From NCBI GenBank assembly GCA_004293365.1, contig RDYN01000121.1:1-41311 (forward strand): a stretch of 41,311 bases of DNA, read 5' to 3'. Under the pieces are notes generated by a model, which was not told the origin of the DNA, did not search any database, and saw only the letters and a program-made list of their open reading frames with translations. Position numbers and translations under genes: made by a program. The DNA comes from Oscillatoriales cyanobacterium. GTDB lineage: Bacteria; Cyanobacteriota; Cyanobacteriia; Cyanobacteriales; Microcoleaceae. Of this stretch, positions 9,683 to 26,895 are shown one piece after another (the stretch's first letter is position 1; every line of letters begins with the position of its first letter).

Positions 9683-10969
9683 CTAAGAACCCGTATTTTC
9701 CAATTCTTCCCGCAGCATTTTCTGGTAGACTTTCGGCAAACTAGAACTCATAGAATTGTTCTCAATTCCATATCCTAAACTTGTCCAAGTTCCCGACAGC
9801 ATCCGCAAAACATCAGTTAATCTTTCCTGTTTCAACATTTCAGGAATATCAGCTTTCCAAACTTTGCGATCGCTCAACCAAGCATAAACCACAGCATCCT
9901 GATATTCCGGTTCAAAACTGTAATCCTGCCACAATACAAAATTACCAGGCTTTGGGTGATAGCGCTTCGCTTTATCTTTCCAAGTTGAAGTCAAAAATTG
10001 ATACCTACCAGCAGCCGTAGTACATTTACCCACATTTGGACCGTTAACAATTTTCACGCACCAGTCAGGATGGCGGCTCAAATCTAATACATATTTGCCG
10101 CCGTAAACAACGTGATAAGGCCGAGAAACATTCGACTCGCTAGCAGAAATAGTCCGCATCAAAGCTCGAAGGTAAGGATCGCCGGTTTTCATAGCCAGCG
10201 GCGGCATTTTTCTCACCTCCCTTGTTGACTGCGAAAACTGCTGATTTCCCCGCAAATTTGCTACCAAAAAAACAGCGCTACTAATTACAGCGCCGATGAC
10301 AATTATAAATCCGAGGATTTGAAGTTCCGATCGCCTCAGCAAACTTTTTTGGCGGCGGCGGATTGTCTCGGTTTCCAATGCAGTCATTTCCATTTCGGCA
10401 ATTTCGGCTAATTTTCGAGCCGCCCGCATCCGGCGCACTCGGAAATCGTGTTGGTATAGCGGTGCGGCTAACAGTGTTAAACTCGATAAAGCTCCGGCTA
10501 ATTTTACCAGCCAGAAATCTAATTCACCGGCGATCGCCACATTGGTGAGAGTGGAGATTCCTGTAAGTAGCTTAGCCGGATCGATCGATCGCGCGGGCCA
10601 ATAATAAATCGCCATTTGCACCAACAGCGCCAGATTGAATGCAAAAAAAATCACGACTACAGCATTCAAGCCTTCTCGCAAGTGCGATCGCACTCCAGTA
10701 TGCCGCCGCTTGAATTTGCGCGCTTTCGCGGGGCCAGGCAGCATTGTCAGTAAGGGATTGACGATTTTGACGGCTACAAAGTGAGCGACAAAGAACAAAG
10801 GTAACTGAATCAGCCAAGCCGCCAGCAGTACAGTCAGAAAGCCGGTATCGTCGCTGGCGAAAGGAATGCCCCTGCGAAGGACAAAACTAAAACTCTGAGC
10901 GAGAGCAAATGCCCTTAACCACGAAATCGGATAGGGGAACCAAGCTGGCCACTTGAGAGTTTTCATCAT
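9683..10969 (-). CDS. Membrane protein with C-terminal lambda-lysozyme-like (GH104-type) domain
   Basis: The 428-residue protein has about four hydrophobic segments in its first ~240 residues, then a linker and a C-terminal ~155-residue domain matching the lambda endolysin/GH104 lytic transglycosylase pattern: SASESN with the catalytic-position Glu278, YHVVYGGK, DLSRHPD, TTAAGRYQFLTSTW, EYQDAVVYAWLSDR and a closing LGYG. Phage endolysins of this type are soluble; here the domain hangs on a multi-pass anchor, presumably facing the periplasm for peptidoglycan cleavage. The ATG at 10969 is chosen; a TTG at 10990 would add seven residues, and neither has a clear ribosome-binding site. No other phage genes lie nearby. 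Confidence 0.75.
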   Translation of the reverse strand: MMKTLKWPAWFPYPISWLRAFALAQSFSFVLRRGIPFASDDTGFLTVLLAAWLIQLPLFFVAHFVAVKIVNPLLTMLPGPAKARKFKRRHTGVRSHLREGLNAVVVIFFAFNLALLVQMAIYYWPARSIDPAKLLTGISTLTNVAIAGELDFWLVKLAGALSSLTLLAAPLYQHDFRVRRMRAARKLAEIAEMEMTALETETIRRRQKSLLRRSELQILGFIIVIGAVISSAVFLVANLRGNQQFSQSTREVRKMPPLAMKTGDPYLRALMRTISASESNVSRPYHVVYGGKYVLDLSRHPDWCVKIVNGPNVGKCTTAAGRYQFLTSTWKDKAKRYHPKPGNFVLWQDYSFEPEYQDAVVYAWLSDRKVWKADIPEMLKQERLTDVLRMLSGTWTSLGYGIENNSMSSSLPKVYQKMLREELENTGS

Positions 10970-11143
10970 GCGGGGAAGGGGAAATTTCAATGGCGGATTG
11001 TCAAACTCTTAAGATTTTGCCAGATTTGGCGATCGAAAAATTGCTGTAGTTCCCCTGCGGTTTGTACCCATCGGACTTGCGCGCGGCTGCCCATCACCTT
11101 GGTTTTTTAACCAAAAACTTGCCTAAAACCCTCAATATCGGTA

Positions 11144-13599: not shown

Positions 13600-16581
13600 T
13601 CAGCTTTTTTCAGAATTTTTCTGACTGCGCCGCCAGCAAGGGAAGCTGACAAATCCCTTATTCTTACTCACAGTAACGTGACAAGAAGATTTAATCGAAC
13701 CAACATTAAAACCGCTGTTATTTCTGATCGCATTTCCCCTTCCTCCCTGACTCGCGACTGCCAGCAAACTGCCCTTAACCGTATTATTTTCTACAACGAC
13801 ATTCTGCATTTGATTAATTTTTGTCTCAGTATCCGCATTTACATAAATCAAAGGCCAATCGCCCTTAACATTGGACAATAACTTATTCCCAAAAATCCTC
13901 ACATCTCGAATCCGAGGCACTTGAGAAATACCGATGTAAGAATTGCCAGCATTACCGACAATCTCCGCTTGCCGAACCGAAGTTCCGCCGCAGCAAGCAT
14001 GAATCACAATTCCCCCTCCGTCATTGCTGAGAAACTTTGAATCTTTCAGTCGATGTCGGTACACTTGAAAGTCATTATCTTGTATTAAAACATTCCAGCC
14101 TGCCCATTCGATCGCCCGACTGTTAAAACTCGTCTTTTCCCCAGCGACTCCCGCGCCTGTATCGTCCGTCCACCACCGCTTGCCGGCATCATCTCGAATC
14201 GTATTATTTTTAACAACCAAGCCATTTCCCGACGCTCGGATTCCCGCCCTCATTGTATGATAAACCCAATTATCGCGAATCGCAATACCTTTGCGAAACA
14301 GACCCGGCTCAGCCTTTGGTTCGGCCGCCGGCACAAAGTTTTCTTCAGATTTGCCAGCCTTGGAACGGTTGACTGAGATACCGAAATGGTTGCTGTAGTC
14401 AAATCTAACATCATATTGGGCGATCGCGCCTGTCTCCCCAGATTTTACTTGATATTCAGGTTGCTGGTAATTATCCGTTATACTGTCGTTAAGCCGATTG
14501 TTGGCAATTAAAACATTAGCCAAAGCGTTAACTTTGATATTAGCGACATAGGGATTGGCATATCGCTGCCACGCTGCTTGAAAATTCAGGTCTGGGACTG
14601 AGGAACTGGGTTCGGCAATGTTATTGCTGCGGAGGCCGTAAACCACAATATTTCGATTTTGACTGTGGTCGAGGTTGCTAAGCAAGTAAATTGGCGATCG
14701 GTTAATATCTAGATTAACCACACCGATATTGCTATCAGTATTGGGATTTTCAGTAAAGATTCTTTTAAAAGCCGTGCTGTTCGGAGTTCCCATCCCTGAA
14801 AGTTGCGGTTCGTATTTAGGAAACACAAATTTTGTCGGAGGATTGTAGAAACTTTGCTTAGCATCTGTTGTTTCGGGAATTTCGCCTCGAATGACTACTC
14901 CCGACTTCAAATAGATACTGTCTGCAAACTCATAAGTCCCCGCAGGAAAATAGACAACCCCGCCACCATTAGCAGCAGCAATATCCCTGGCAAAGTTAAA
15001 CCTGTCAATCAGAGTGCCTCCGTTAAAATCTTGGATATTGTATGCACAACTCCATTTAATTTCCGATGTCCAAGGATAAGATTGTTTTCCGTATCGAGAA
15101 TCTATCGGATTATCCGTTGGCCCGCCGCTGGGACTTCCGCAGCCTAACAGTTGTCCGGGAAATAGCGATGATTTTGCTTTCACAATAAAGTTGTTAATAT
15201 TATTGAAATTAGTTACATAAAAAGTTCCGATTAACGAGACAATAAATATACCCAAAAACATATAAAGCTGAACTTGAGGTGAAATTAATCTTCTTTTCTC
15301 GTTATCTTGAGAACAAGGATATCTAACAGCAGCGAAACTGAGAGTCCACCAGGCAATATGCGCGTATTGAGCGCAATCGAACCAACTCACAGCAAAAACC
15401 AGATAAGCAATAGCAACTGCTGCAATCCCGCGAAGAGAAGATTGCAGGGCTAAAGATAAATAATATCCCCAAAGTGCAATGCCAGCAATCAGCCCCAAAA
15501 TACCAACTGATACCGTTGTATCGAGAATCCAATTGTGAGCCTTATAAGTAGGAATTTCTCTGGTGCTAATTCCACCTTTTATGTTAATATAGTCGTAGGT
15601 AAACTCATTCAAGTTAACAACTCTCGGAGTTACTTGAGGATTTCTGATATAGGGATAGGCAATCCCCAAGCCGTCGAATCCCCATCCAAATAACGGGCGT
15701 TTTTTGATTCCTCTGGCTGCGAGCGTCCAAATGGGCGATCGGCTGGACATGACTTGTTCGATGCTCGGTTTTTGCCAGTTGAGGGGTCTGTTAAGCGTCA
15801 TGATACCAATTGCAATTAAACTGATGATAACCAGTCCGGTGAGAATTTTGTAATATTGCCGTCCCAACAAATAAGCACAGGCAACAATCAAAGCTACAAT
15901 TGCACTGCGGGTAGAAGTTAGCAGCAGTGCGGGAACAGTTAAAATCAAAGTAATTGCAGTTAATTTAGTATTCGTAAATCTCCAAAACCAACCGACAATC
16001 GCAGTAATAGCCGTCAACGCTAAAACTATAGCTGCGTGGCCGCGGTGGGAGTACAATCCTATAGGTTGCTGTCCTTGAAAAATGCTGCTGGCTAGAACAT
16101 CCTCTCGGATAAGTTTGCCCATGGTAGCGGTGTAGTCAATCCGCCAGTCGATGATTTGGGGAAAGATGCTGAGAGAAAGAATGATTGCACCAATTAGCAA
16201 TCCTTGGAATTGGGAATTAATCAGTTGCGGGCGTGCGATTAACAGCAAGCTATTGCTGAGAGTAAAGGCAGCGATTAACAGCCAGTACAGCCAACCGTCG
16301 CCCATTTGGTCTTGACCGAGAAAAGAGGTTAATGGGAAGGGACTGTGCAGGGTGGAGATGGCTCCTATTGAGAGAAATATCGTCCAAAGTATGAAGCTAT
16401 TTTTCCAGTTTTGGGGAATCGCGAGGGATTTTTTTTGCGATAATAAAAGGGCGATGTTGAGGGAAATTATTAGCCAAACAATCAATACTTTGGGCGATGT
16501 CCAGATGAAGCCCCGCGTACTTCCCCAGGGGTTGATGAGGATGATGCTGAGGGCATACAGGATGGTGTAAAGGGTTTTCAT
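13600..16581 (-). CDS. Fusion: O-antigen ligase/polymerase membrane domain + right-handed beta-helix domain
   Basis: The 993-residue protein has two halves. Residues 1-460 contain about 11-12 transmembrane segments with Wzy/WaaL-type features: LTSTRSAIVALIV (Arg225), RSPIWTLAARGIKKRPLFGWGFDGLG and KAHNWILDTTVSVGILG (His349, the position of the essential ligase His). Residues ~515-980 form a pectate-lyase-like beta-helix: NFARDIAAANGGGVVYFPAG, then rungs such as NVLIANNRLN, LVVKNNTIRD, VLIQDNDFQV, VRIFGNKLLS and VVVENNTVKG. The expected topology puts the helix in the periplasm. It may polymerise or ligate a polysaccharide and bind, cleave or epimerise it (inference). Its ATG overlaps the stop of the PEP-CTERM gene by one base (TAATG), indicating translational coupling. 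Confidence 0.85.
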   Translation of the reverse strand: MKTLYTILYALSIILINPWGSTRGFIWTSPKVLIVWLIISLNIALLLSQKKSLAIPQNWKNSFILWTIFLSIGAISTLHSPFPLTSFLGQDQMGDGWLYWLLIAAFTLSNSLLLIARPQLINSQFQGLLIGAIILSLSIFPQIIDWRIDYTATMGKLIREDVLASSIFQGQQPIGLYSHRGHAAIVLALTAITAIVGWFWRFTNTKLTAITLILTVPALLLTSTRSAIVALIVACAYLLGRQYYKILTGLVIISLIAIGIMTLNRPLNWQKPSIEQVMSSRSPIWTLAARGIKKRPLFGWGFDGLGIAYPYIRNPQVTPRVVNLNEFTYDYINIKGGISTREIPTYKAHNWILDTTVSVGILGLIAGIALWGYYLSLALQSSLRGIAAVAIAYLVFAVSWFDCAQYAHIAWWTLSFAAVRYPCSQDNEKRRLISPQVQLYMFLGIFIVSLIGTFYVTNFNNINNFIVKAKSSLFPGQLLGCGSPSGGPTDNPIDSRYGKQSYPWTSEIKWSCAYNIQDFNGGTLIDRFNFARDIAAANGGGVVYFPAGTYEFADSIYLKSGVVIRGEIPETTDAKQSFYNPPTKFVFPKYEPQLSGMGTPNSTAFKRIFTENPNTDSNIGVVNLDINRSPIYLLSNLDHSQNRNIVVYGLRSNNIAEPSSSVPDLNFQAAWQRYANPYVANIKVNALANVLIANNRLNDSITDNYQQPEYQVKSGETGAIAQYDVRFDYSNHFGISVNRSKAGKSEENFVPAAEPKAEPGLFRKGIAIRDNWVYHTMRAGIRASGNGLVVKNNTIRDDAGKRWWTDDTGAGVAGEKTSFNSRAIEWAGWNVLIQDNDFQVYRHRLKDSKFLSNDGGGIVIHACCGGTSVRQAEIVGNAGNSYIGISQVPRIRDVRIFGNKLLSNVKGDWPLIYVNADTETKINQMQNVVVENNTVKGSLLAVASQGGRGNAIRNNSGFNVGSIKSSCHVTVSKNKGFVSFPCWRRSQKNSEKS

Positions 16582-18617
16582 TACTCTTTGGTTTTCCGGT
16601 TTTTGAGCTTGAGGAATATACCTAATCCGGTGAGTGCTAATAGTGTTCCTAATTCAGTGGTGGGTTCGGGAACGGCTTCAGCGGGGAGGGCATCATCGTC
16701 AGGGTTTATAGTTTTAGAGGCTACGGAGTTGTTATCCTCTGAGGCTAATTCTGGGTCTTCCAATAAGTCGCTGCTGATGCCTGCTAAATCAAGTTCATTT
16801 TCGTTACTGTCGGTTGATGATAGTTCTGGGTCTTCAAGTAAGTCGCCGCTGATGCTGGCTAAGTCAACTTGGTTTTCGTTGTTGTCTGTTGATAATGATT
16901 CGGGGTCTTTAAGCAAGCTGCTGCTGATGCTAGTTAAATTGAGCTCATTTGGGTTACTGTCTGTTGATGATGATTCTGAGTCTTCAAGTAAATCACTGCT
17001 GATGCTAGCTAAATTGACTTGGTTTTCGTTGCTGTCCGTTGATGATAGTTCTGAGTCTTCAAGTAAATCACGACTAACGCCAGCTAGGTTTGCATTGTTC
17101 AAACTATTGTCCGTTGATGATAATTCTGGGTCTTCAAGTAACTCACTGCTGATATTTGCTAGGTCTGTGGCATCGCTATCAACACCAAAAGTTGCGTAGG
17201 TGCGGGCAGCGCGAATTGGCGAACTGGGCCGCTGAAAGGATGAGGGTGATGTAGTAGTTGTTGTTGATGTTGAGACAACGACAGTTGATGATGTTGACCC
17301 TAGTGGAGATGTTACCCAAGGTGTAGGAGTTGGCCAGGGTGAGGGAGTCCAAGGTGAGGGAGTTGGCAAAGGTGACGAGGTTAGTCGAGGTGATGGTGTT
17401 GGTGTTGTTGCCCATGGTGCAGGCGTAGGCCAAGGTGATGGAGTCCAAGCTGAGGGTGTTGGCCAAGGTGATGGAGTCCAAGCTGAGGGTGTAGGAGTTC
17501 GTGATGGAGTCCAAGCTGAGGGTATTGGTGCTGGCCCGGGTGTTGGTGCAGGTCTGGGTGATGGTGCAGGTGACACTAATATTATTGGCGACGGTGTTGG
17601 TGACGGGCTTGGTCTAGGTGCTGGACGCGGGGTTGGCAAAGGTGAAGGGGTTGGTCGTGGTGTTGGTTTTGGTGAAGCTGTTATGTAGCCTATGCCACCG
17701 CCGCCGCTAGCACTACTAGCGACCGGTTCACCTTTGGGTATACGTATGGGTATATTCCATTCAGGAATGACAAACGGGATTGGGTTTGGAGTTGGAGCTG
17801 GAACGGGAACTGGTTCTTTGCGACGAGTTACTGTGTTTTTCCAACCCCATCTGATTCCGTTGTAAATGGTGATTGTTCTTTTCTTACTTGTTGGTGGCGT
17901 AGTCTCTTGAACTAGGTAGAGTTGCGCTGTGAAATAATTGTTTCTGCTAGCCGACGCCCGCTTCAAACTGCCAGCATATGGTTGATCCATAAAGAAGTCT
18001 TCACCTGCAAAACGAGAATTTGGACGATCGTAGTAGGGATTTTCTTTTCTATTAAAATTATCGATAAAAGAAATACCAGGTATCCGAGATGCACCTGCTA
18101 CATTGCTACCGTAGTTAGCTTGCACCATCTGAATCCAATGAAGTTTACCTTCACCTGGTTGAGGATCGCCCTTTCCTGGATGATACTTTAAGTGAAAAAG
18201 AGAGCCGACTCCTCGATAAGTGTCATTTATGTCAGTGTAAGGCGTACTAGCCCCACCACACCCATCCTTAGGACTGCAAGCTTGATAAGTTATTACCTCA
18301 AAACTACCCTTTAAGTCCTCTGCGGCTGGATTAAAAGACCAACCCAACCGATCTTTTGCAGACAGAAAAGACCATGCGGCAAGAGTTCTGTTAAAAATAG
18401 TCGTTCCACCACGGGGCAGAGGCTCCGACCATAATCCCATATCTATCTCCGTTCTGCTTTCTCGATTCTTATCTATTTTGTAAATAGATTCAGGCTGATA
18501 AAACCTTGTAGCACCGGGATTTGGGGGAATAATATTAAAAGCAATACTTGCTTTGCCCGTCAATCCAACTATCAAGAATGATGTCAACAAAACTTGGGGA
18601 TATTGTCGAAATAACAT
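16581..18617 (-). CDS. PEP-CTERM surface protein with Pro/Thr-rich and 25-residue repeats (paralog A)
   Basis: The 678-residue protein has an N-terminal signal peptide ([18 protein letters not shown]), a ~260-residue N-terminal domain ending in [20 protein letters not shown], and a Pro/Thr/Ser/Trp-rich region (about 300-455, [20 protein letters not shown] style). About six ~25-residue repeats ([20 protein letters not shown] type) follow, then the sorting signal [18 protein letters not shown] plus a basic tail. PEP-CTERM proteins are processed by exosortases and exported with exopolysaccharide; no exosortase is in this window. The ATG at 18617 has AGGAG 8 bases upstream; a GTG at 18695 precedes the signal peptide and is unlikely. 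It is the penultimate gene of operon A. Confidence 0.85.
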
Positions 18618-18707
18618 GGTTTTGACTCCTAGACGTATGAGGTTTAAAAGAAATATCAGCTTTTGAGGAGAATCAAATGAAATAGGCTCTTTCACTTCAA
18701 TCTCAAT

Positions 18708-19973
18708 TCAAGAACGCACTAAGCGAAAGTCTACAAAGGGAGTAGATATTTGACCGCTCCAGACATCTAAAGTCGTGTATGTTTCTACAGACTCGTATAT
18801 TTTAACCATTGATTGCTGGCTGCTATATCTAAGCCGAACTTGGTATGTTTGTAGAGTTAGAGGTTCAAAAGTCAATATGTCACCATTTCCGGTAGTAATC
18901 CTAAGTCCAAATTTATCTTCCCAAAGCCCAAAAATTTCTGTTTCTGGAAAGAAGGTAATATCCTCTCCGGGCATAACGGAAAAAATATCAGAATTAGAGG
19001 GGCAGCTACCGCGAATCCACGCATCTCCGAATGGAATTAGTCCATCTACTCCCATAATTTCTAGAAATAAGGTGAAATAAAAGCTAAATCTAAGGGGAGT
19101 AGATGTATTATTGGTAATCCGAATACCAATCTGCACGGGGATTATAAAGGAGGAGTAGTAAATTGATATAGGTGATAAAAATTTCATTAGGTACAGAAGT
19201 TTATGTATTAAATTGTTTTTGGGTATGCTTAAAACTCGCTCTGGTACTAAAATTTCAAAGCGAACACCATCCATTTCCACAGCATTGCTGTCTGCTTCTA
19301 CTGGTTGAACCAAGCGAAGATTTACAAAAGGACTAATCAATAGTTCTGACTCGCTCTCTTCTACATTTGTTATTTCGAGAGGAGCTATCTCAGGTATTAC
19401 TCTGTTTGCACAGTTGTGTTGATAGATAAACCTAATTTGATAATTTCCGGGCAATAGTGGCTCAAACAACCAGAAATTGTGAAGTTTTATCGACCCGAAA
19501 AATTCGTTGAACTCAGTAGAAATTTTCAGTGCAAGTAAGTTATTTTCCCAGGCAAGACTTGCGTCGATCGTGATAGTTTTGGATTCTCTAGGCTCAACTA
19601 ACATATAATTAATTTCTCTGGTTTCGTAGCACTCCTGCGATAAGTTTAAGTTCGATATAAATTCAGTCAATCTGCCCGCCCATCCTGTTCTATATCTGTT
19701 CGGTTGAACTTCAGATTCTGGCTTTTCGTTAACTAATTGCCGCTGTAAGGCTTGACCCTCGGATGTTACAATTTCTGGAATCAAGGTTCCAGAGAGGTTG
19801 AAGTGGAAAGACATTGAAGTGTTATTGGTAATATGAATATATAATTCTATAGGAGGCGTGATGCCCGCTCTGTTTTCAGGGATGGTGAGTGCCGTAGGGT
19901 CAGGCAGCATAATTTCCATATTAATGCCAGTTACTTCAATTGCGTTGTTGTCACTGAATTGTTCTGATGTCAT
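18708..19973 (-). CDS. Two-copy beta-rich domain protein (paralog A)
   Basis: The 421-residue protein holds two copies of an unrecognised ~190-residue domain (about 5-215 and 225-421). Each copy begins with a pattern like NNAIEVTGINMEI, continues with I(T/R)ITNNTS and GxYQ(I/V)R(F/L)(I/R)Y, and ends near STPFVDFRLV. The same domain occurs in the genes at 23584 and 24223. Alternating hydrophobic/polar residues suggest a beta-sandwich. No signal peptide or membrane segment is visible. The start is ATG at 19973 with AAAGGT upstream. It lies 90 bases before the PEP-CTERM gene on the same strand. The function is unknown. Confidence 0.75.
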   Translation of the reverse strand: MTSEQFSDNNAIEVTGINMEIMLPDPTALTIPENRAGITPPIELYIHITNNTSMSFHFNLSGTLIPEIVTSEGQALQRQLVNEKPESEVQPNRYRTGWAGRLTEFISNLNLSQECYETREINYMLVEPRESKTITIDASLAWENNLLALKISTEFNEFFGSIKLHNFWLFEPLLPGNYQIRFIYQHNCANRVIPEIAPLEITNVEESESELLISPFVNLRLVQPVEADSNAVEMDGVRFEILVPERVLSIPKNNLIHKLLYLMKFLSPISIYYSSFIIPVQIGIRITNNTSTPLRFSFYFTLFLEIMGVDGLIPFGDAWIRGSCPSNSDIFSVMPGEDITFFPETEIFGLWEDKFGLRITTGNGDILTFEPLTLQTYQVRLRYSSQQSMVKIYESVETYTTLDVWSGQISTPFVDFRLVRS

Positions 19974-20023
19974 GTTGGTTAACCTTTTGATTTTTACAGA
20001 TGAAGGATATCAATATTGATGAA

Positions 20024-20332
20024 TTACAACCGATTGAGAGAAGTAGCACCGGGCTTGTTTTCTGGGATTGCTAGTGCAATAATTCGTGGCTCTCTGATTT
20101 CCAGTAAAAAGCCATCTTGTTTAACTTTATTGTTGTTATTCGATCCTTGAGATGTCATATTTTCAACCCTTCCAAGTCTTGAGTGTTCATTGCCAACTGC
20201 TTGTATACTGGCATAGGTTATTACCACGATCGCAGAAATTACTAAAGCAAATAAAAACCGCAAAAGATACTTAATCGCCCTCTCAACTACCCGACAATCA
20301 GCCCAAAAACCAGAACCACACCGCGGCCCCAA
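20024..20332 (-). pseudogene. Truncated paralog of the membrane-anchored beta-rich domain protein
   Basis: The frame encodes a transmembrane segment (YLLRFLFALVISAIVVITYA, then SIQAVGNEHS) matching the start of the 24223-25500 gene, continues into the domain start (ALAIPENKPGATS) and then stops. In the intact paralog the equivalent position has ATG after GAGAGGGCGAGCG; here the same spot reads ATT, leaving only a TTG far upstream that overlaps the previous gene. Loss of the start codon and loss of about 330 residues mark it as a decaying copy. A short membrane peptide could still be made. Confidence 0.65.
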
Positions 20333-20741
20333 TTATCATCAGCCAAAATAGTTTACCGCCACGGACACTCGAATGTCGGGGCTGCTTAACTAAAGTGTAT
20401 CGGTAATATCCTAAAACAGGCTGACAATCATTTCGAGCCGACGCAGAACTCGGCCAATGTGACGAAGAATTTGACCAATAATTTTCTGGTGTATCCCGCA
20501 GTCTGCCCGATGGATAACCGTAGGATAATTGCGGTTGGAAACGGTCTGGTATGTGATGTTGAGAGGCAATTTCCTGTTTCGTCGCTGCCACAAACTCCGA
20601 CTTCAGCACCCAGGTGGGAATTGGGCCAATTGTTTGATGGCAACTGCTACAAAACTGATTGCTGGCTAACTTTGATGGTTGTTGGCAATTAGGTCTTTCG
20701 CAGTAATGTTTTTCACCGTAAACTTGTCCGCAGTAGTTCAT
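20298..20741 (-). CDS. Tail-anchored protein with zinc-ribbon-like Cys cluster (paralog A)
   Basis: The 147-residue protein starts with a Cys-rich motif (YCERPNCQQPSKLASNQFCS then SCHQ), which resembles the four-Cys prefix seen before some cyanobacterial Ser/Thr kinases. A ~90-residue linker follows (with QPQLSYGYPSGRLRDTP and GYYRYTLVKQP), then a C-terminal membrane helix (GKLFWLMIIGAAVWFWFLG). It is therefore a cytosolic head on a tail anchor. The start is ATG at 20741 with AGGAG six bases upstream. It is the first gene of operon A. The paralog at 25527 keeps the tail but has lost most of the cysteines. Confidence 0.7.
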   Translation of the reverse strand: MNYCGQVYGEKHYCERPNCQQPSKLASNQFCSSCHQTIGPIPTWVLKSEFVAATKQEIASQHHIPDRFQPQLSYGYPSGRLRDTPENYWSNSSSHWPSSASARNDCQPVLGYYRYTLVKQPRHSSVRGGKLFWLMIIGAAVWFWFLG

Positions 20742-20995
20742 AAATTCTCCTGATGTCCCTAATAATCAACGAAGAAATTGATAGCGATGCCACAAATGTA
20801 TCTAGTTAAAAGCTCGATGAAAAAAATAGACCAAATCATTAAGCTTTGTAACTTTTGTCTTTACACGACTTAACGGTTCGAAGGAATTTCGATTACAAAC
20901 ACGCTATCACCATTATGAGAGTAAAGCTAGAGAGTTTTTACTAAAGTTTTTGAGGTTTACCGTTCACCTTGAATCCCAAATTAATGCTCAACTGG
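20742..20995. other. Leader between operon A start and the conserved block
   Basis: No gene is seen. Only the part nearest the start codon (GATGTCCCTAATAATCAACG) resembles the equivalent leader of operon B (GATGTCCCTGATAATGAACG); the rest has diverged. Confidence 0.5.
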
Positions 20996-21227
20996 GTATT
21001 TATATGTAGGTAGGGTAAAGTTGAGTTTACAGAATTTTTACAAGAGTGTCAGTTAACTTGACGGCCCCCTTAAAACAGATTGTTGCCGAGCGTTATACAT
21101 GGTATGCGGTTGACTAAAAAATTGGTGATTCGACAGCCGCAAAAAATACAATTTCCTCTCGAACTTGGCTCAAGTGAGTCTAAGTGTTGTATGTAAGTAG
21201 TTTTACTTAAGTGTGTACGCACGTTTG
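20996..21227 (-). promoter_or_regulatory. Conserved upstream block of operon A
   Basis: This ~230-bp noncoding block matches 26204-26431 with roughly 14 differences by eye, starting at GTATTTATATGTAGGTAGGG and running to TTTTACTTAAGTGTGT. It ends about 255 bases before the first start codon of operon A, the same distance as in operon B. It probably contains the promoter and possibly a structured leader. No individual -10/-35 pair is assigned with confidence. Confidence 0.65.
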
Positions 21228-21425
21228 GACAATTGACTCAAAAAGTCGATCGCACTTTTTAGATAATTGACTAAAAAGGGAGCTCGCACTTATTACAAAA
21301 TTACTCAAAAAGTCGATCGCAGGTTTGGACAATGCAACTCAAAAGGTCGATCGCAGGTTTGGACAATGCAACTCAAAAGGTCGATCGCAGGTTTGGACAA
21401 TGCAACTCAAAAGGGATCTCGAAAA
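21228..21425. repeat. 34-bp tandem repeat array (about 6 copies)
   Basis: The last three units are near identical: CTCAAAAGGTCGATCGCAGG continuing TTTGGACAATGCAA. The earlier units are degraded. The unit carries a HIP1-like core (TCGATCGCA). A larger array of the related 32-bp unit lies at 26455-26895. The array sits between the 3' end of operon B and the conserved block of operon A. Confidence 0.8.
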
Positions 21426-21456
21426 CAGACAGACAACAACCTCAATAAATACTCTA

Positions 21457-23511
21457 CTACTTCTGAGTTTTCCTGTTTTTGAGCTTGAGGAATATGCCTA
21501 ATCCGGTGAGTGCTAATAGTGTTCCTAATTCAGTGGTAGGTTCGGGAACGGCTTCGGCTGGAAGGGCGTCATCGTCAGGGTTTATAGTTTTAGAGGCTAC
21601 GGAGTTGTTATCCTCTGAGGCTAATTCTGGGTCTTCCAGTAAGTCGCCGCTGATGCCTGCTAAATCAAGTTCATTTTCGTTACTGTCTGTTGATGATAAT
21701 TCTGGGTCTTCAAGTAAGTCGCCGCTGATATCTGCTAAATCAAGTTCATTTTCGTTACTGTCTGTTGATGATAATTCTGGGTCTTCCAGTAAGTCGCTGC
21801 TGATGTTTGCTAAATCAACTTGGTTTTCGTTACTGTCTGTTGATGATTGTTCTGAATCTGTAAGTAAATCGCTACTAGCGCTTGCTAAATCAATTTGATT
21901 TTCGCTGCTGTCTGTTGATGATTGTTCGGGGTCTTCGAGTAAGTTACCACTGATATTTGCTAAATCTGTCGCATCGTTATTAATTGATGAGTATCCAATA
22001 TTTTCGGATGAGTCTGAGTCAGTATTTGCTGCGGTATTATCGAGTGTTGTATCGGGAAGTGGCAACTCTGACTCTACATAGTCGGTAGCAAAAACTCTGT
22101 TGGCGTTGGCAGTGCGGTTTAGGGAACTGGGTTTGGGATTCGGTGATGGCGCTGCGCTAGGTTTTGACGTTGAGACAACAACGACAGTTGATGATGATGA
22201 TGATGATGATGATGTTGATGTTGATGTTGATGTTGATGTTGATGTTGATGTTGATGTTGATGATGTTGACCACGGTGCAGGTGTAGGCCAAGGTGATGAA
22301 GCCCAAGGCGCAGGCGTTGGCAAAGGTGTTGGAGTCCAAGGTGATGTGGTTGGCAAAGGTGTTGGAGTCCAAGGTGATGTGGTTGGCAAAGGTGTTGGAG
22401 TCCAAGGTGAGGGTGACGGTGCAGGCAACACTAATACTATTGGTGATGGCGTTGGTGATTGGGTTGATCGAGGTGTTGGTGATGGTGTTGGTCGAGGTGT
22501 GGGCGATGGTGTTGGTCGAGGTGTTGGTGATGGTGATGGTGATACTGCCACGCAACCGATGCCACCGCCACCGCTGCTGCTGTTGGCGACAAAGGTGCTA
22601 CCACTGTTTGTCAACATACTTGGCGGACAAAGAAGTGGATTTTCCGGTGTTTTAGTTGGTTTTGGAGCTGGAACTGGAGCTGGAACGGGAACGGGAACGG
22701 GTACTGGCTGTTTGCGACGACGAGTTACTTTGTTTTTCCAGCCCCACCGTATTCCGTTGTAAATCGTAACGTTCGTTTCCGTAATAGTTAGTTGGTTTTT
22801 ATCTGTTCTGCTGAATGTCTCTATACCAGCTAAGTAAGCTTCCGCAAACCAATAATGCTCGTTTAGGGGATCTTCTCTATAGCTTCTGTCTACCAATCTT
22901 TCGGTACTTCCTGGATAGAAAGGGGTGTGTTGACGACCTACATTGTCAAGGTATTTTGACACTTTATTATCATGTTGCTTCACATGAGCCGGGTGGTTAG
23001 TGTTTACCCACTGAATCCAACGAAGGTCTCGTGTTGTATCACCTCTACCTCGCAGGTAATTCAACTCAATCCCAGCTCCCACTCCGGTTGAAACAGGTGG
23101 ATTAGGTGTTGTTACATTTGGTAGGTTTGGATATTTACAATGAATCTTGAAAGTACAAGCATAATAGTTTAATACTTCTACATTTCCTCTTAAGTCTTTA
23201 TCCGCTTTAGTAAAATTCCAAATCTGTGTACGACTGGAATTATTATAAGTTGATATCCTATAAGCCTCTAACAGATTTTGCAAAGTTATCGTCCCGCCAC
23301 GTGGCATTTCTGTTATTTTATATGGCTCCAGTCTCGTGTTGATAGTTATTTCTTCATTCCCTTGCATATAAGTGACAGACTGAGTTGGAAGGTATAAATC
23401 TCGTGCTCCTTTTGCTGCAAAATTCAGGCTGAAACCCATAGCCTCTTGACTCGTGAATGCAACTAACAAGGGTGTTGCTAAAAACATTACGATCGTTTGT
23501 GTGGTCGCCAT
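21457..23511 (-). CDS. PEP-CTERM surface protein with Pro/Thr-rich and 25-residue repeats (paralog B)
   Basis: The 684-residue protein has the same plan as the paralog at 16581: signal peptide (TIVMFLATPLLVAFTSQEAMG), N-terminal domain with MPRGGTITL, LRWIQWVN, HYWFAEAYLAG and [20 protein letters not shown], a Pro/Thr region with SPWTPTPLPTT repeats, a pure Ser/Thr stretch, then ~25-residue acidic repeats and [18 protein letters not shown]. The N-terminal domains share only scattered identity, while the last ~80 residues are almost identical. The start is ATG at 23511 with GAGGA six bases upstream. It is the last gene of operon B; no O-antigen-ligase gene follows, unlike in operon A. Confidence 0.85.
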   Translation of the reverse strand: MATTQTIVMFLATPLLVAFTSQEAMGFSLNFAAKGARDLYLPTQSVTYMQGNEEITINTRLEPYKITEMPRGGTITLQNLLEAYRISTYNNSSRTQIWNFTKADKDLRGNVEVLNYYACTFKIHCKYPNLPNVTTPNPPVSTGVGAGIELNYLRGRGDTTRDLRWIQWVNTNHPAHVKQHDNKVSKYLDNVGRQHTPFYPGSTERLVDRSYREDPLNEHYWFAEAYLAGIETFSRTDKNQLTITETNVTIYNGIRWGWKNKVTRRRKQPVPVPVPVPAPVPAPKPTKTPENPLLCPPSMLTNSGSTFVANSSSGGGGIGCVAVSPSPSPTPRPTPSPTPRPTPSPTPRSTQSPTPSPIVLVLPAPSPSPWTPTPLPTTSPWTPTPLPTTSPWTPTPLPTPAPWASSPWPTPAPWSTSSTSTSTSTSTSTSTSTSSSSSSSSTVVVVSTSKPSAAPSPNPKPSSLNRTANANRVFATDYVESELPLPDTTLDNTAANTDSDSSENIGYSSINNDATDLANISGNLLEDPEQSSTDSSENQIDLASASSDLLTDSEQSSTDSNENQVDLANISSDLLEDPELSSTDSNENELDLADISGDLLEDPELSSTDSNENELDLAGISGDLLEDPELASEDNNSVASKTINPDDDALPAEAVPEPTTELGTLLALTGLGIFLKLKNRKTQK
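22188..22266. repeat. In-frame (GAT)n and (GTTGAT)n microsatellite
   Basis: About eight GAT trimers are followed by about seven GATGTT hexamers, encoding the pure Ser/Thr run of the PEP-CTERM protein B. Slippage would change length without breaking the frame. Paralog A has only a short equivalent near 17256-17300. Confidence 0.85.
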
Positions 23512-23583
23512 TATGTATCCTCAATCAGTTAGGTTTATACGAAGTGCTAATTATTAGGCGTAAATCCTTAATTAGATTCATTT

Positions 23584-24180
23584 TTACTTTGTGGTTACTG
23601 GTTTAACTATGCAAAACTCTATGAAAGGGGTAAATACTTGCCCTACCCATACCATTTTTAAGCACTGTTTATCTATTAACTCGTCATAGCTTTTTACTGC
23701 CCCATTCGTTACTTCATATTTGAATCTGATCGAATAATTCCCCGTAGATGGTAGATGGAATTTCCAATATTCGCGGTTGGTAAAAGGCATAAAAAGCATT
23801 AAATCTATATCCTGCTTTCTTTTTATTTTTGGATATCTTCGCTCCCAATAACACTGAGCGGTATGAGAAAAAGTTACAGACTTTCCCGGCATAGTTAAGT
23901 GAAGATCCGATTCGTGAGGTACTCCTACTCCATCTGCCTGATAACCAGGATTAATATTTTGACCATCTGATGTTATAATTTCTGGAACAAATTGGAAAAA
24001 ACAAAAATAATAGGGAGTTGAAGTATTGTTAGTGATCGAAAAACCTAACACTACAGATGTATGATCGTCTTGCGTAGTTCTTTTTATCGGGACAGTCCAC
24101 AGACGGTCTGACAGGATTGTTTCAAACCGGATTCCATCAACTTCAACGGCATTGTTGTCACTTGATTCTCCTATGTTCAT
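23584..24180 (-). CDS. Single-copy beta-rich domain protein (paralog B)
   Basis: This 198-residue protein consists of one copy of the domain seen twice in the 18708 and 24223 genes: NNAVEVDGIRFETIL at the start, FSITNNTSTPYYFCF in the middle, GNYSIRFKYEVTNG later, and VWVGQVFTPFIEFCIV at the end. There is no signal peptide. A near-perfect Shine-Dalgarno (AAGGAGG) lies nine bases before the ATG at 24180, the best in this operon. It is the third gene of operon B, before the PEP-CTERM gene. The function is unknown. Confidence 0.75.
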   Translation of the reverse strand: MNIGESSDNNAVEVDGIRFETILSDRLWTVPIKRTTQDDHTSVVLGFSITNNTSTPYYFCFFQFVPEIITSDGQNINPGYQADGVGVPHESDLHLTMPGKSVTFSHTAQCYWERRYPKIKRKQDIDLMLFMPFTNREYWKFHLPSTGNYSIRFKYEVTNGAVKSYDELIDKQCLKMVWVGQVFTPFIEFCIVKPVTTK

Positions 24181-24222
24181 GATGCTTGTCCTCCTTATTT
24201 ACCGATTCTAATAATTCGTCAT

Positions 24223-25500
24223 TCAAGACTGAGTTAAGCGGAATTCAACAAAGGGAGTATCCACCCACCCAGTCCAAACTTTTTCTATTGGTAGACTTTC
24301 AATCAACTCGCCAGCAAGATTTTTATTCGGTATGGTATCAATCGTATTTCCATACAGGAAGCGGAGATGATATATACCTGGCTTGAGTTGCTCAAAAGCG
24401 CAATAGCCACCATATCCGATAGAGACACCAAGCGAAAATTGGCTATGATTAGTCCAGAAAAGTCTGATATCTGGAAAAAATGTCAGACTTTTTCCAGGTG
24501 TGACTAACAGAAAGTCAAATTCTTCAGGCCCTCTGATCCAGTCATTACCATAGGCTCCCCTCTTCACCTCACCATCTGGCATTACCAAGTCAGGGTAAAA
24601 AGTGTCATAAAAGCTGAAGTAAAATGGGGTTGGTGTGTTGTTGGTAATCCGCATACCAATCTGTACAGATTGGTAGGAATTGTCATTCTTATTTGGCAGG
24701 GTTAACAATGGCTCCGGTATGAAAGTTTCAAAACGAATACCATCTACTTCCACTGCACTGTTATTCAATCCAACAGGTTGAAGTAGGCGAAAATTAGCTA
24801 AGGGAGTTGCCAACTGACTGCCAGTTACTTCTATTCCAATTTCTTGTCTAGTCTCAATAAAAGTGACTGGATCTGGGTATAATATCGTCCCAGTAGGGGT
24901 TTCATAAATGAATCGAATCTGATAGGCTCCGGGTCCCAAAGTATCAAAAGACCAAGATTTATCGAGGTCAATAGGGATTCCATCGTAAATTGGGTTATGT
25001 AATATCAGTTGCAGTGAATTTTGTTGCCAAAACAGTCTTCCCTCCAGAGAGGTGGATGTCTGCTCTCCGACCCCAACTAAGGAGCCATGATATTCCCCAC
25101 TCGCAACTTGTCTATTTATCGGTTCTCTTCGGTGCAGTGCTTGACCAGATGGCCCGAATATCTCTGGGATTAAAGCACCATAATGTAGGAAAGGAACAGG
25201 GGCTTGTGTATTATTGGTAAAGCGGAGAATAAAGCTCAATGGAGCAGTAGCACCGGGCTTGTTTTCGGGGATGGATAGTGCCGCATTTTCTGGCCATCTG
25301 ATTTCAAGTTGAAGGCTATTTTCTTTCAGTTGAAGGCTATTTTGTTGAAATTTATTGCTCCGCTTAGATTTTCTAGATGCCATGTTTGTTACCTTTTCAA
25401 CTTGTGAATTTTCATTGCCAACAGCTTGTATACTTCCATAGGTTACTACCAGGAGCGCCGCCATCACTAAAGCCAATAAAAACCGGAGAAAATACCTCAT
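24223..25500 (-). CDS. Membrane-anchored two-copy beta-rich domain protein (paralog B)
   Basis: The 425-residue protein begins with a transmembrane segment (FLRFLLALVMAALLVVTYGS) and a short basic/Gln-rich linker, then carries two domain copies (about 60-230 and 235-425). The first includes IPENKPGATAPLSFILRFTN and GAYQIRFIYET; the second starts NNSAVEVDGIRFETFI and ends VDTPFVEFRL. The N-terminal anchor implies that the domains are outside the cytoplasm. The ATG at 25500 with GAGAGGG just upstream is preferred to TTG at 25515. It follows the tail-anchored gene by 26 bases, indicating an operon. A decayed copy lies at 20024-20332. Confidence 0.78.
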   Translation of the reverse strand: MRYFLRFLLALVMAALLVVTYGSIQAVGNENSQVEKVTNMASRKSKRSNKFQQNSLQLKENSLQLEIRWPENAALSIPENKPGATAPLSFILRFTNNTQAPVPFLHYGALIPEIFGPSGQALHRREPINRQVASGEYHGSLVGVGEQTSTSLEGRLFWQQNSLQLILHNPIYDGIPIDLDKSWSFDTLGPGAYQIRFIYETPTGTILYPDPVTFIETRQEIGIEVTGSQLATPLANFRLLQPVGLNNSAVEVDGIRFETFIPEPLLTLPNKNDNSYQSVQIGMRITNNTPTPFYFSFYDTFYPDLVMPDGEVKRGAYGNDWIRGPEEFDFLLVTPGKSLTFFPDIRLFWTNHSQFSLGVSIGYGGYCAFEQLKPGIYHLRFLYGNTIDTIPNKNLAGELIESLPIEKVWTGWVDTPFVEFRLTQS

Positions 25501-25526
25501 CGCTCGCCCTCTCAACTACCCGACAA

Positions 25527-25964
25527 TCAGCGAACAAACCAAAACCACACCGCCGCACCAATTACCATCAGCCAAAACAATTTACCGCCAGTTCCACTCG
25601 ACTCTCCAGGCGACTTAATCAAAGTATATTTGTAATATCCCTTCATCGGCTGAGTATACTTCTGAATTGGTCTAGACATCGGCCAATCAAACACAGATTT
25701 CGATCGCTCGGACGGCCTCCGAACTCCACTGGGTGGAAAACCGTAGGATAGTTGTAGGCGCCAATGTTGCGGTAGGCTTTCTTGTTCGGCAATTTGCTTC
25801 TCCGTCAGCGGTACAAACTCCAACTTATACTCACCAGTCAGATGAGGTCTCATTATTTGATAGAAAAAACTGCTACGAAATTGCTCGTATTCGAGCTTTG
25901 AGGGGTGTCTGTAATTATATTTGTTGGAGCAATTTTTGTCAGTGTAGTGTTCTTGCCAGTTCAT
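25527..25964 (-). CDS. Tail-anchored protein, paralog B with lost Cys cluster
   Basis: The 145-residue protein aligns with the 20298 gene along its length (LQLSYGFPPSGVRRP, GYYKYTLIKSP, GGKLFWLMVIGAAVWFWF). At the N-terminus the zinc-ribbon pattern is eroded to CSNKYNYRHPSKLEYEQFRS, with one Cys left. The membrane tail is the best conserved part. The ATG at 25964 is preceded by AGGAAT. A 40-bp duplication places a second copy of this ribosome-binding site and ATG directly upstream. It is the first gene of operon B. Confidence 0.7.
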   Translation of the reverse strand: MNWQEHYTDKNCSNKYNYRHPSKLEYEQFRSSFFYQIMRPHLTGEYKLEFVPLTEKQIAEQESLPQHWRLQLSYGFPPSGVRRPSERSKSVFDWPMSRPIQKYTQPMKGYYKYTLIKSPGESSGTGGKLFWLMVIGAAVWFWFVR

Positions 25965-26004
25965 AATTATTCCTCGTATCAGTGTAGTGTTCTTGCCTGT
26001 TCAT
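25939..26004 (-). CDS. 21-codon overlapping upstream ORF created by a duplication
   Basis: The upstream copy of the duplicated start region opens with ATG at 26004 and reads MNRQEHYTDTRNNYELARTL plus one residue, then TGA. Because the repeat period is 40, it is out of frame with the real gene and overlaps its first ~25 bases. It has the same AGGAAT site as the true start, so it may compete for ribosomes. Expression is not shown. Confidence 0.4.
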   Translation of the reverse strand: MNRQEHYTDTRNNYELARTLH

Positions 26005-26016
26005 AATTATTCCTCG
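25939..26016. repeat. 40-bp direct duplication over the start codon of operon B
   Basis: The unit beginning TCAGTGTAGTGTTCTTGCC and containing GTTCATAATTATTCCTCG is present twice in tandem with one internal base difference. It includes the ribosome-binding site, start codon and first eight codons of the 25527-25964 gene. Confidence 0.9.
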
Positions 26017-26203
26017 TTGATGTCCCTGATAATGAACGAAGAGATTCATAGCGATGGGATAAGTCTAAGCGTAATTAAATAGATTGGCAATAGTTATAAA
26101 AAAAAAACTATCTTAAAAAATTTAACTAATAAATAAAACTTATAATAGTAAGTAACTCAGGCTTAATTTAAGTTGATAAAACATTGCAATCTACACAATA
26201 TGA

Positions 26204-26431
26204 GTATTTATATGTAGGTAGGGTAAAGTAGAGTTTACAGAATTTTTACAAGAGTGTCAGTTAACTTGACGGGCTTTTTAAAAGAGATTGTTGCCGCTCA
26301 TTATACATGGTATGCGGTTGACTATAAAATTGGTGATTCGACAGCCGCAAAAAATACAATTTCCTCTCGAACTTGGCTCAAGTGAGTCTAAGTGTTGTAT
26401 GTAAGTAGTTTTACTTAAGTGTGTCTTCACG
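26204..26431 (-). promoter_or_regulatory. Conserved upstream block of operon B
   Basis: This block is the near-identical counterpart of 20996-21227 and lies about 240 bases before the operon B start. The two long stretches free of differences are GAGTTTACAGAATTTTTACA and the part from ATTGGTGATTCGACAGCCGC to CTTAAGTGTGT. Between the block and the gene the two leaders are unrelated, apart from ~25 bases near the start. Confidence 0.65.
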
Positions 26432-26454
26432 CACGGCTTTGCACAATGCAAGCC

Positions 26455-26895
26455 GAAAGGTCGATCGCCCGTTTGGACAATTACTCGAAAGGTCGATCGC
26501 CCGTTTGGACAATTACTCGAAAGGTCGATCGCCCGTTTGGACAATTTCGTCAAAAGGTCGATCGCACGTTTGGACAATTACTCGAAAGGTCGATCGCCCG
26601 TTTGGACAATTTCGTCAAAAGGTCGATCGCACGTTTGGACAATTACTCGAAATGGCGATCGCACGTTTGGACAATTGACTCGAAAAGGTCGATCGCACGT
26701 TTGGACAATTACTCGAAAGGTCGATCGCACGTTTGGACAATTACTCGAAATGGCGATCGCACGTTTGGACAATTGACTCGAAAAGGTCGATCGCACTTGT
26801 TACAAAATTACTCAAAAGGTCGATCGCACGTTTAGACAATTGACTCGAAAAGGTCGATCGCACTTGTTGCAAAACTTACTCAAAAGGTCTATCTA
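26455..26895. repeat. 32-34-bp tandem repeat array (13 copies plus a decayed one)
   Basis: The unit AAAGGTCGATCGCACGTTTG continuing GACAATTACTCG is repeated about 13 times with variants (CCC/CAC after the HIP1 core; ATTACTCG, ATTTCGTC or ATTGACTCG junctions). There are no unique spacers. The array lies between operon B and the divergent histidine kinase gene. Several overlapping frames read through it but are repeat artefacts. Confidence 0.88.

Follow-up and report, generated by a model that had tools for sequence, protein, structure and literature searches.

A conserved acceptor–ligase-like gene module of PEP-CTERM proteins and a WaaL-superfamily ligase in cyanobacteria

Introduction

Among described systems, those closest to the locus considered here are the protein-specific O-linked oligosaccharyltransferases (O-OTases), namely TfpO/PilO, TfpM and PglS with a pilin or ComP as partner, and the PEP-CTERM/exosortase system (EpsH, CrtA, CrtB). 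The genes for protein-specific O-OTases are often found near those of their substrates (PMC12645811). A link between PEP-CTERM proteins and exopolysaccharide has been drawn from their first description onwards, and a 2006 paper connects PEP-CTERM and EpsH with exopolysaccharide genes (PMC1569441). In Nostoc punctiforme, CrtB is essential for motility, biofilm and scytonemin, and PEP-CTERM proteins were changed in the exoproteome of a crtB mutant, with glycosylation raised as a possibility (PMC12188702). In this study, we analysed a stretch of cyanobacterial DNA, hereafter the window, which is a contig of 41,311 nt (41.3 kb; RDYN01000121.1) within the 7.3-Mb genome of an Oscillatoriales cyanobacterium (GCA_004293365.1), with its closest named homologues in Microcoleus and Tychonema. 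On its minus strand, to which all features given below belong, lie two tandem gene sets, B and A, each with a gene for a PEP-CTERM protein, and set A ends with the gene for a 993-aa membrane protein that we call LIG.

Like the protein-specific O-OTases, LIG is WaaL-like with conserved Arg and His residues and is encoded next to a single exported protein. The partner is a pilin in those systems, whereas here it is a PEP-CTERM protein, and the present system has a candidate site of the form Ser-Gly-Gly-Gly-Gly (Ser-Gly4) and sometimes a beta-helix fusion. With the PEP-CTERM/exosortase system the locus shares the PEP-CTERM tail and the presence of exosortases in the genome; however, no exosortase is encoded at the locus itself, a ligase gene follows that of the putative substrate, and members from Nostocales carry PES or PEY instead of PEP. 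The module is real and conserved and acceptor–ligase-like in its make-up. Among the papers listed in our literature searches there was no earlier description of it and no account of a LIG/PEP-CTERM gene pair or of Ser-Gly4. We read its function from association and analogy, and from these we infer glycan transfer.

Results and Discussion

The conserved unit consists of one or more genes for proteins with a domain that we call DOM, a PEP-CTERM protein with an orphan N-terminal domain (PEPN), and LIG, a WaaL-superfamily ligase. Maps of the window and of 40 loci of relatives show these in the order DOM, PEPN PEP-CTERM protein, LIG. All 35 PEPN clusters have a DOM gene on the same strand, and LIG or a fragment of it lies downstream in 30 of the 31 that could be assessed, the one without being locus L085 and a further four ending at a contig edge. 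Among 98 genomes, DOM was found in 33, PEPN in 21 and LIG (E <= 1e-20) in 28; PEPN and LIG occurred together in 20, PEPN only in one, LIG only in eight and neither in 69 (p=2e-13), and co-occurrence of DOM with PEPN was equally marked (p=3e-13). An earlier, sequence-only reading of the window had taken a different set of four genes as the unit, for a tail-anchored protein (TAP), a membrane-anchored domain protein, a soluble domain protein and a PEP-CTERM protein. This left out the most constant partner, the ligase gene (16581-13600), and took in TAP, which is present in 17 of the 98 genomes, 16 of these in the genus of the window. The co-occurrence that this reading had proposed to check is borne out for DOM with PEPN and for PEPN with LIG, although no PEPN was detected in 12 of the 33 genomes with DOM.

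A search started from LIG gave 63 named loci in Microcoleus, Tychonema, Oscillatoria, Planktothrix, Okeania, Calothrix, Nostoc, Komarekiella, Chlorogloeopsis and others, of which 40 could be assessed, having an intact LIG start and enough upstream DNA; the remainder had a broken LIG start (17) or lay at contig edges (6). In 37 of the 40 loci a PE-type sorting tail ends between -153 and +4 nt from the LIG start, in 22 of these 37 at -2, compared with one in 142 under the same rule among the other open reading frames (ORFs) of these loci, which served as controls here and for the Ser-Gly4 counts. One of the three loci that fail the rule, L178, has an SE-type tail, and a tail was present at 4 of the 17 loci with a broken LIG start; L170 was scored as a contig edge in this count, though a tail is seen 5' of its LIG. 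In the window, the ATG of LIG overlaps by one base the stop codon of PEP-CTERM protein A (16581..18617), whose tail is encoded at 16581..16673. Genes downstream of LIG in other genera had no Pfam family in common (six tested).

The proteins linked to LIG have Ser-Gly4 in common, often placed between Cys residues, and what is new here is that the motif is shared by LIG-linked loci including those whose partners lack PEPN. Of 43 loci, 40 encode it in the 1.9 kb ahead of LIG, whereas none of 95 control windows does; in the window it lies at 17695..17708 in protein A and at 22562..22575 in protein B. Ser precedes the run in 52 of 54 distinct contexts with at least four Gly residues, the exceptions being L085, which has no LIG, and an additional run in a motif-bearing protein. 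The motif is also present in five of six LIG-linked PEP-CTERM ORFs that gave no PEPN hit (L141, L146, L147, L159 and L174; not L143), and in L123 and L124 it follows right behind the signal-like segment of unrelated PEP-CTERM partners of 132-138 aa that belong to more distant LIGs. By comparison, it occurs in none of 31 PEP-CTERM ORFs not chosen by LIG, a control set whose tails were mainly the strongest TIGR04155 matches, and only two of the 48 Ser-Gly4 sites in the window's own genome (all codon forms) fall in PEP-CTERM-tailed ORFs, namely proteins A and B, in a survey that covered 1.5 kb on each side and that tails further off would escape. A Gly run lies at most 140 aa after the domain in 42 of 51 PEPN proteins, though these include runs of other make-up (AAGGGARG type, L085), and in some of the remaining nine Ser-Gly4 comes further on. 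L085, the LIG-less PEPN cluster with room downstream, is also without Ser-Gly4. Because the motif is present in partners without PEPN and absent from other PEP-CTERM ORFs, it tracks the ligase and not the N-domain or the tail on its own. Two single proteins may be mentioned here: L085:4367-5995 encodes PEPN fused to what by eye is a von Willebrand A-like domain, with a PEP-CTERM tail, and L287, a 290-aa frame of the window's own genome, has Ser-Gly4 right behind a signal-like segment and no PEP-CTERM tail within the stretch seen.

Residues 1-470 of the window's LIG (15172..16581) form the membrane ligase part with a Wzy_C domain (48.1 bits, cut-off 31.7), which was found in all 29 aligned LIG proteins, and R225, R281 and H349 are invariant across these. 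Searched against the PDB, the LIG profile matched only the O-antigen ligase WaaL (7tpg; E 0.013), where the TRxA and AHN segments fall in register but R281 does not; LIG differs from WaaL in being distant in sequence and in having as partner gene that of a protein with a sorting tail. E. coli WaaL requires R215, R288 and H338, and PglL retains R224, R298 and H349 (PMC3643930); LIG retains the catalytic Arg and His residues of both. Its likeness to TIGR03097 (PEP_O_lig_1), the putative O-glycosylation ligase of exosortase A systems, is weak (28.7 bits for the window's LIG, cut-off 188.1; 13 of 29 LIG proteins match at E <= 0.01), and LIG is a distant relative of that family rather than a member. 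The C-terminal part of LIG (13600..15141) is a pectate-lyase-like beta-helix with a PF12708 match below cut-off. The fusion is found in the window and in L074, L079, L080, L087, L092, L122 and L170, and L108 has the beta-helix in a gene of its own directly after LIG. Among the best 120 of 302 beta-helix homologues, 14 are LIG fusions, one of them from Aerosakkonema funiforme, and the others are mostly proteins of 546-620 aa, some named GH28-related. Stand-alone beta-helix proteins in the genomes searched are 52-58% identical to the LIG-fused domain; those of L128, L129, L130 and L132 lie in varied neighbourhoods, and no Pfam family was common to the neighbours of such proteins (eight tested).

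Our favoured reading, to which we give a probability of roughly 45%, is that the window carries an array of cassettes for surface proteins of the exosortase type, with a ligase dedicated to them, and that, ahead of exosortase cleavage, LIG attaches a glycan to the PEP-CTERM protein, Ser-Gly4 being a possible site. The signal peptide would export the PEP-CTERM protein and the tail helix would hold it in the inner membrane, as is known for the family. LIG, whose gene usually comes directly after, would act on the periplasmic side and transfer a lipid-linked glycan or polysaccharide chain to the protein, the Ser of Ser-Gly4 or its vicinity being the most likely site; an exosortase would then cut at the tail and the glycoprotein would pass to the sheath or surface. 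In this strain the LIG-fused beta-helix might, more speculatively, trim or edit the glycan. Recombination between cassettes would swap the N-domains while the C-terminal part is kept alike, a pattern that is seen in A and B. A bolder version draws on animal proteoglycans, in which attachment takes place at Ser-Gly. By analogy the products might be cyanobacterial proteoglycan-like surface proteins, LIG recognizing Ser-Gly4 as a sequon in an exosortase substrate and joining polysaccharide to its Ser, with the fused beta-helix trimming or editing the chain; we regard this version as possible but doubtful.

Several findings weigh against LIG being a protein glycosyltransferase that acts at Ser-Gly4. 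Many loci are close relatives and several of the 63 are already-read contigs under a second name, so the locus counts are not counts of independent events. Set B has no ligase directly behind it. Three loci, L150, L184 and L185, lack Ser-Gly4, the partner in L184 having only SGGSGG, and the motif, which was found after looking, may instead be a hinge, a contact site or a turn. A Pro/Ser/Thr-rich linker is not general either: a 50-aa stretch with at least 50% Pro/Ser/Thr occurs in 12 of 40 linkers, as against 10 of 164 control ORFs, and a mucin-like linker as a general rule was rejected on these counts. The domains PglL_A and Wzy_C_2, which are marks of PglL, were not found in the 29 LIG proteins, which gave only Wzy_C (E <= 0.01); TfpO and TfpM are likewise described as lacking both (PMC12645811). 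Finally, five more distant LIG homologues (212-385 bits; 338 class-level genomes) have neither a PE tail nor Ser-Gly4 upstream in any of the five cases, so that the pairing is confined to one clade of the LIG family. The lack of PglL-specific domains and the distant homologues without a PEP-CTERM neighbour would also suit a LIG that is a Wzy-type polymerase or a WaaL-type lipid ligase for sheath polysaccharide, with the PEP-CTERM protein as co-polymerase, length regulator or scaffold and Ser-Gly4 as a contact or turn, and Wzy_C is common to polymerases, lipid ligases and O-OTases alike (PMC3643930). However, LIG is closely paired with an exported protein that is held in the membrane, and even unrelated partners share a motif with a Ser; both speak against this, and we consider a polymerase or lipid ligase unlikely.

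The PEP-CTERM assignment made in the sequence-only reading holds, as the tail, made up of the PEP motif, a hydrophobic helix and a basic end, reaches 19.5 bits in protein B (60 aa scored; TIGR02595 cut-off 16; tail at 21457..21549), and 22 of 26 tails match this model at E <= 1; the full-length PEP-CTERM proteins of the window stay below the TIGR02595 and TIGR04155 cut-offs. The proposal of an envelope system is supported as well, by N-terminal signal-like segments, by the tails and by four exosortases encoded on other contigs of the genome, namely CrtB (441 bits, cut-off 300), two CrtA (288 and 273, cut-off 150) and XrtO (600, cut-off 250). An exosortase was indeed present in all 16 PEPN-positive genomes among the 59 searched (five further PEPN genomes lie outside these), but since 54 of the 59 have one, this co-occurrence is uninformative and carries little weight. 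In a 60-leaf tree the tail classes follow the LIG clades (FastTree supports 0.997-1.0): a PEPTTxLG-like tail at 19 loci in a clade of 22, PEPGSIL...KKRQ at five of five, including the genome's own copy on contig C59, and PES, PEY or SES in Nostocales at 10 loci in a clade of 16, the other leaves of these clades showing no tail. Such concordance counts in favour of our main reading. Together with the fact that the tail is the feature nearest LIG in the genes, it would also fit a LIG that acts on the C-terminus, where after an exosortase cut near PEP the new C-terminus would be linked to a sugar made or transferred by LIG, the tail and not Ser-Gly4 being the site. Type IX secretion cargo with C-terminal linking sugars is known, and a paper on it also compares PEP-CTERM genes (PMC7468200). 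PEP-CTERM tails are, on the other hand, common without LIG, whereas Ser-Gly4 marks the partners of LIG, and a C-terminal site therefore seems quite improbable to us.

The two sets had been described as strongly divergent paralogues, with an old duplication as one explanation. Divergence is indeed strong in the N-domains (PEPN 84/244 aa identical; TAP 67/144 aa), but the last 99 residues of the PEP-CTERM proteins are 93/99 identical and a far-upstream block, copied at 26201..26447 for set B and at 20993..21233 for set A, is identical at 229/241 nt and occurs in the genome at these two places only. Relatives carry the cassette types in other orders, as in L079 and L080, where an A-type set leads and the set in front of LIG has a B-type TAP, and in L073 a one-DOM/PEPN-B pair is 95-97% identical and the neighbouring 430-aa DOM protein 76%. 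Because identity jumps from block to block and cassette orders differ, the comparison points to recombination between cassettes, and a plain old duplication was rejected. Tandem repeats, with periods that include 75, 33, 24 and 6 nt, are present in the linkers and in the acidic ends. This mosaic, the other cassette orders and the many paralogues and broken copies might also mean that the array is mainly a variation system, for adhesion or for kin or phage recognition, that reshuffles its N-domains, with the ligase as a generic helper. Such a role would be compatible with a dedicated ligase, but LIG is the most constant neighbour and PADLOC matched none of the eight proteins tested, which led us to reject an anti-phage system on current libraries, and as the chief function of the array we consider variation very improbable.

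We take DOM and TAP to be accessories. Among 51 DOM homologues, 11 match Inhibitor_I42 (chagasin-type; best 1e-6) and one matches BsuPI, weak matches from which an Ig-like fold is likely for DOM, while the window's own DOM protein matches neither. A hydrophobic leader precedes the domain in 43 of 100 distinct DOM proteins of at least 170 aa and is absent from 57. TAP homologues often retain four Cys residues near the N-terminus, and 14 of 15 aligned have the same hydrophobic end segment; against NF045510, a four-Cys prefix domain, TAP-A scored 20.2 bits (cut-off 24) and TAP-B had no match. PEPN gave no convincing match, with one Pfam hit in one of 43 members (E 0.039) and two PDB rows at E ~1.

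The two tandem minus-strand sets are present where the sequence-only reading had placed them, but they do not have the same four genes, because the membrane-anchored gene of set A is a remnant and the soluble proteins differ in domain number. Set B runs from TAP-B (25527..25964; 145 aa, the four-Cys N-terminus of its homologues mostly lost) through an N-anchored protein with two DOM domains (24223..25515; 430 aa) and a soluble one-DOM protein (23584..24180; 198 aa) to PEP-CTERM protein B (21457..23511), which has a signal-like segment, PEPN, a Pro/Ser/Thr linker with Ser-Gly4, acidic 25-aa repeats and the PEP-CTERM tail. Set A comprises TAP-A (20298..20741; 147 aa, with a four-Cys prefix-like N-terminus), the remnant of the N-anchored DOM gene (20024..20275), a soluble two-DOM protein (18708..19973; 421 aa), PEP-CTERM protein A, laid out as protein B, and LIG. 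The remnant has about 83 codons, counted from the place where set B has its ATG start codon and set A an ATT, and stops at 20024, shortly after entering the first DOM; the mechanical ORF over it, from an upstream TTG, is of 102 aa. Arrays of 32-34 nt repeats lie upstream of set B (26454-26893, 13.4 copies) and between the sets (21218-21414, 5.8 copies), and a 40-nt tandem duplication at 25939-26017 gives TAP-B a second copy of its start region and, with it, an out-of-frame ATG further upstream at 26004, which is where the earlier reading had ended its finding. Elsewhere in the genome, L094 (G000:C2) is another DOM/PEPN locus, the third, and L113 (G000:C59) has another LIG, the second, both truncated at a contig end; the two LIG types of this genome, those of the PEPTTxLG-like and PEPGSIL...KKRQ clades, are 58% identical. 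Split or frameshifted copies of TAP or LIG in L073, L084, L089, L090, L097 and L111 point to decay or draft errors. Proteins of 435-436 aa with N-terminal helices are encoded near several loci (window 9683-10990, L073:671-1978, L107:4775-6079, L109:6716-8020), and the end of the one in the window is muramidase-like by eye.

Concluding remarks

Now that a ligase gene is seen to follow directly on that of its PEP-CTERM partner, and a motif to mark these partners, the question of whether and how such proteins are joined to sugar becomes testable. The combination of a PE-CTERM tail, Ser-Gly4 and an adjacent Wzy_C gene provides a search rule for more candidate enzyme–acceptor pairs, and the array offers N-domains that vary ahead of a constant sorting end.

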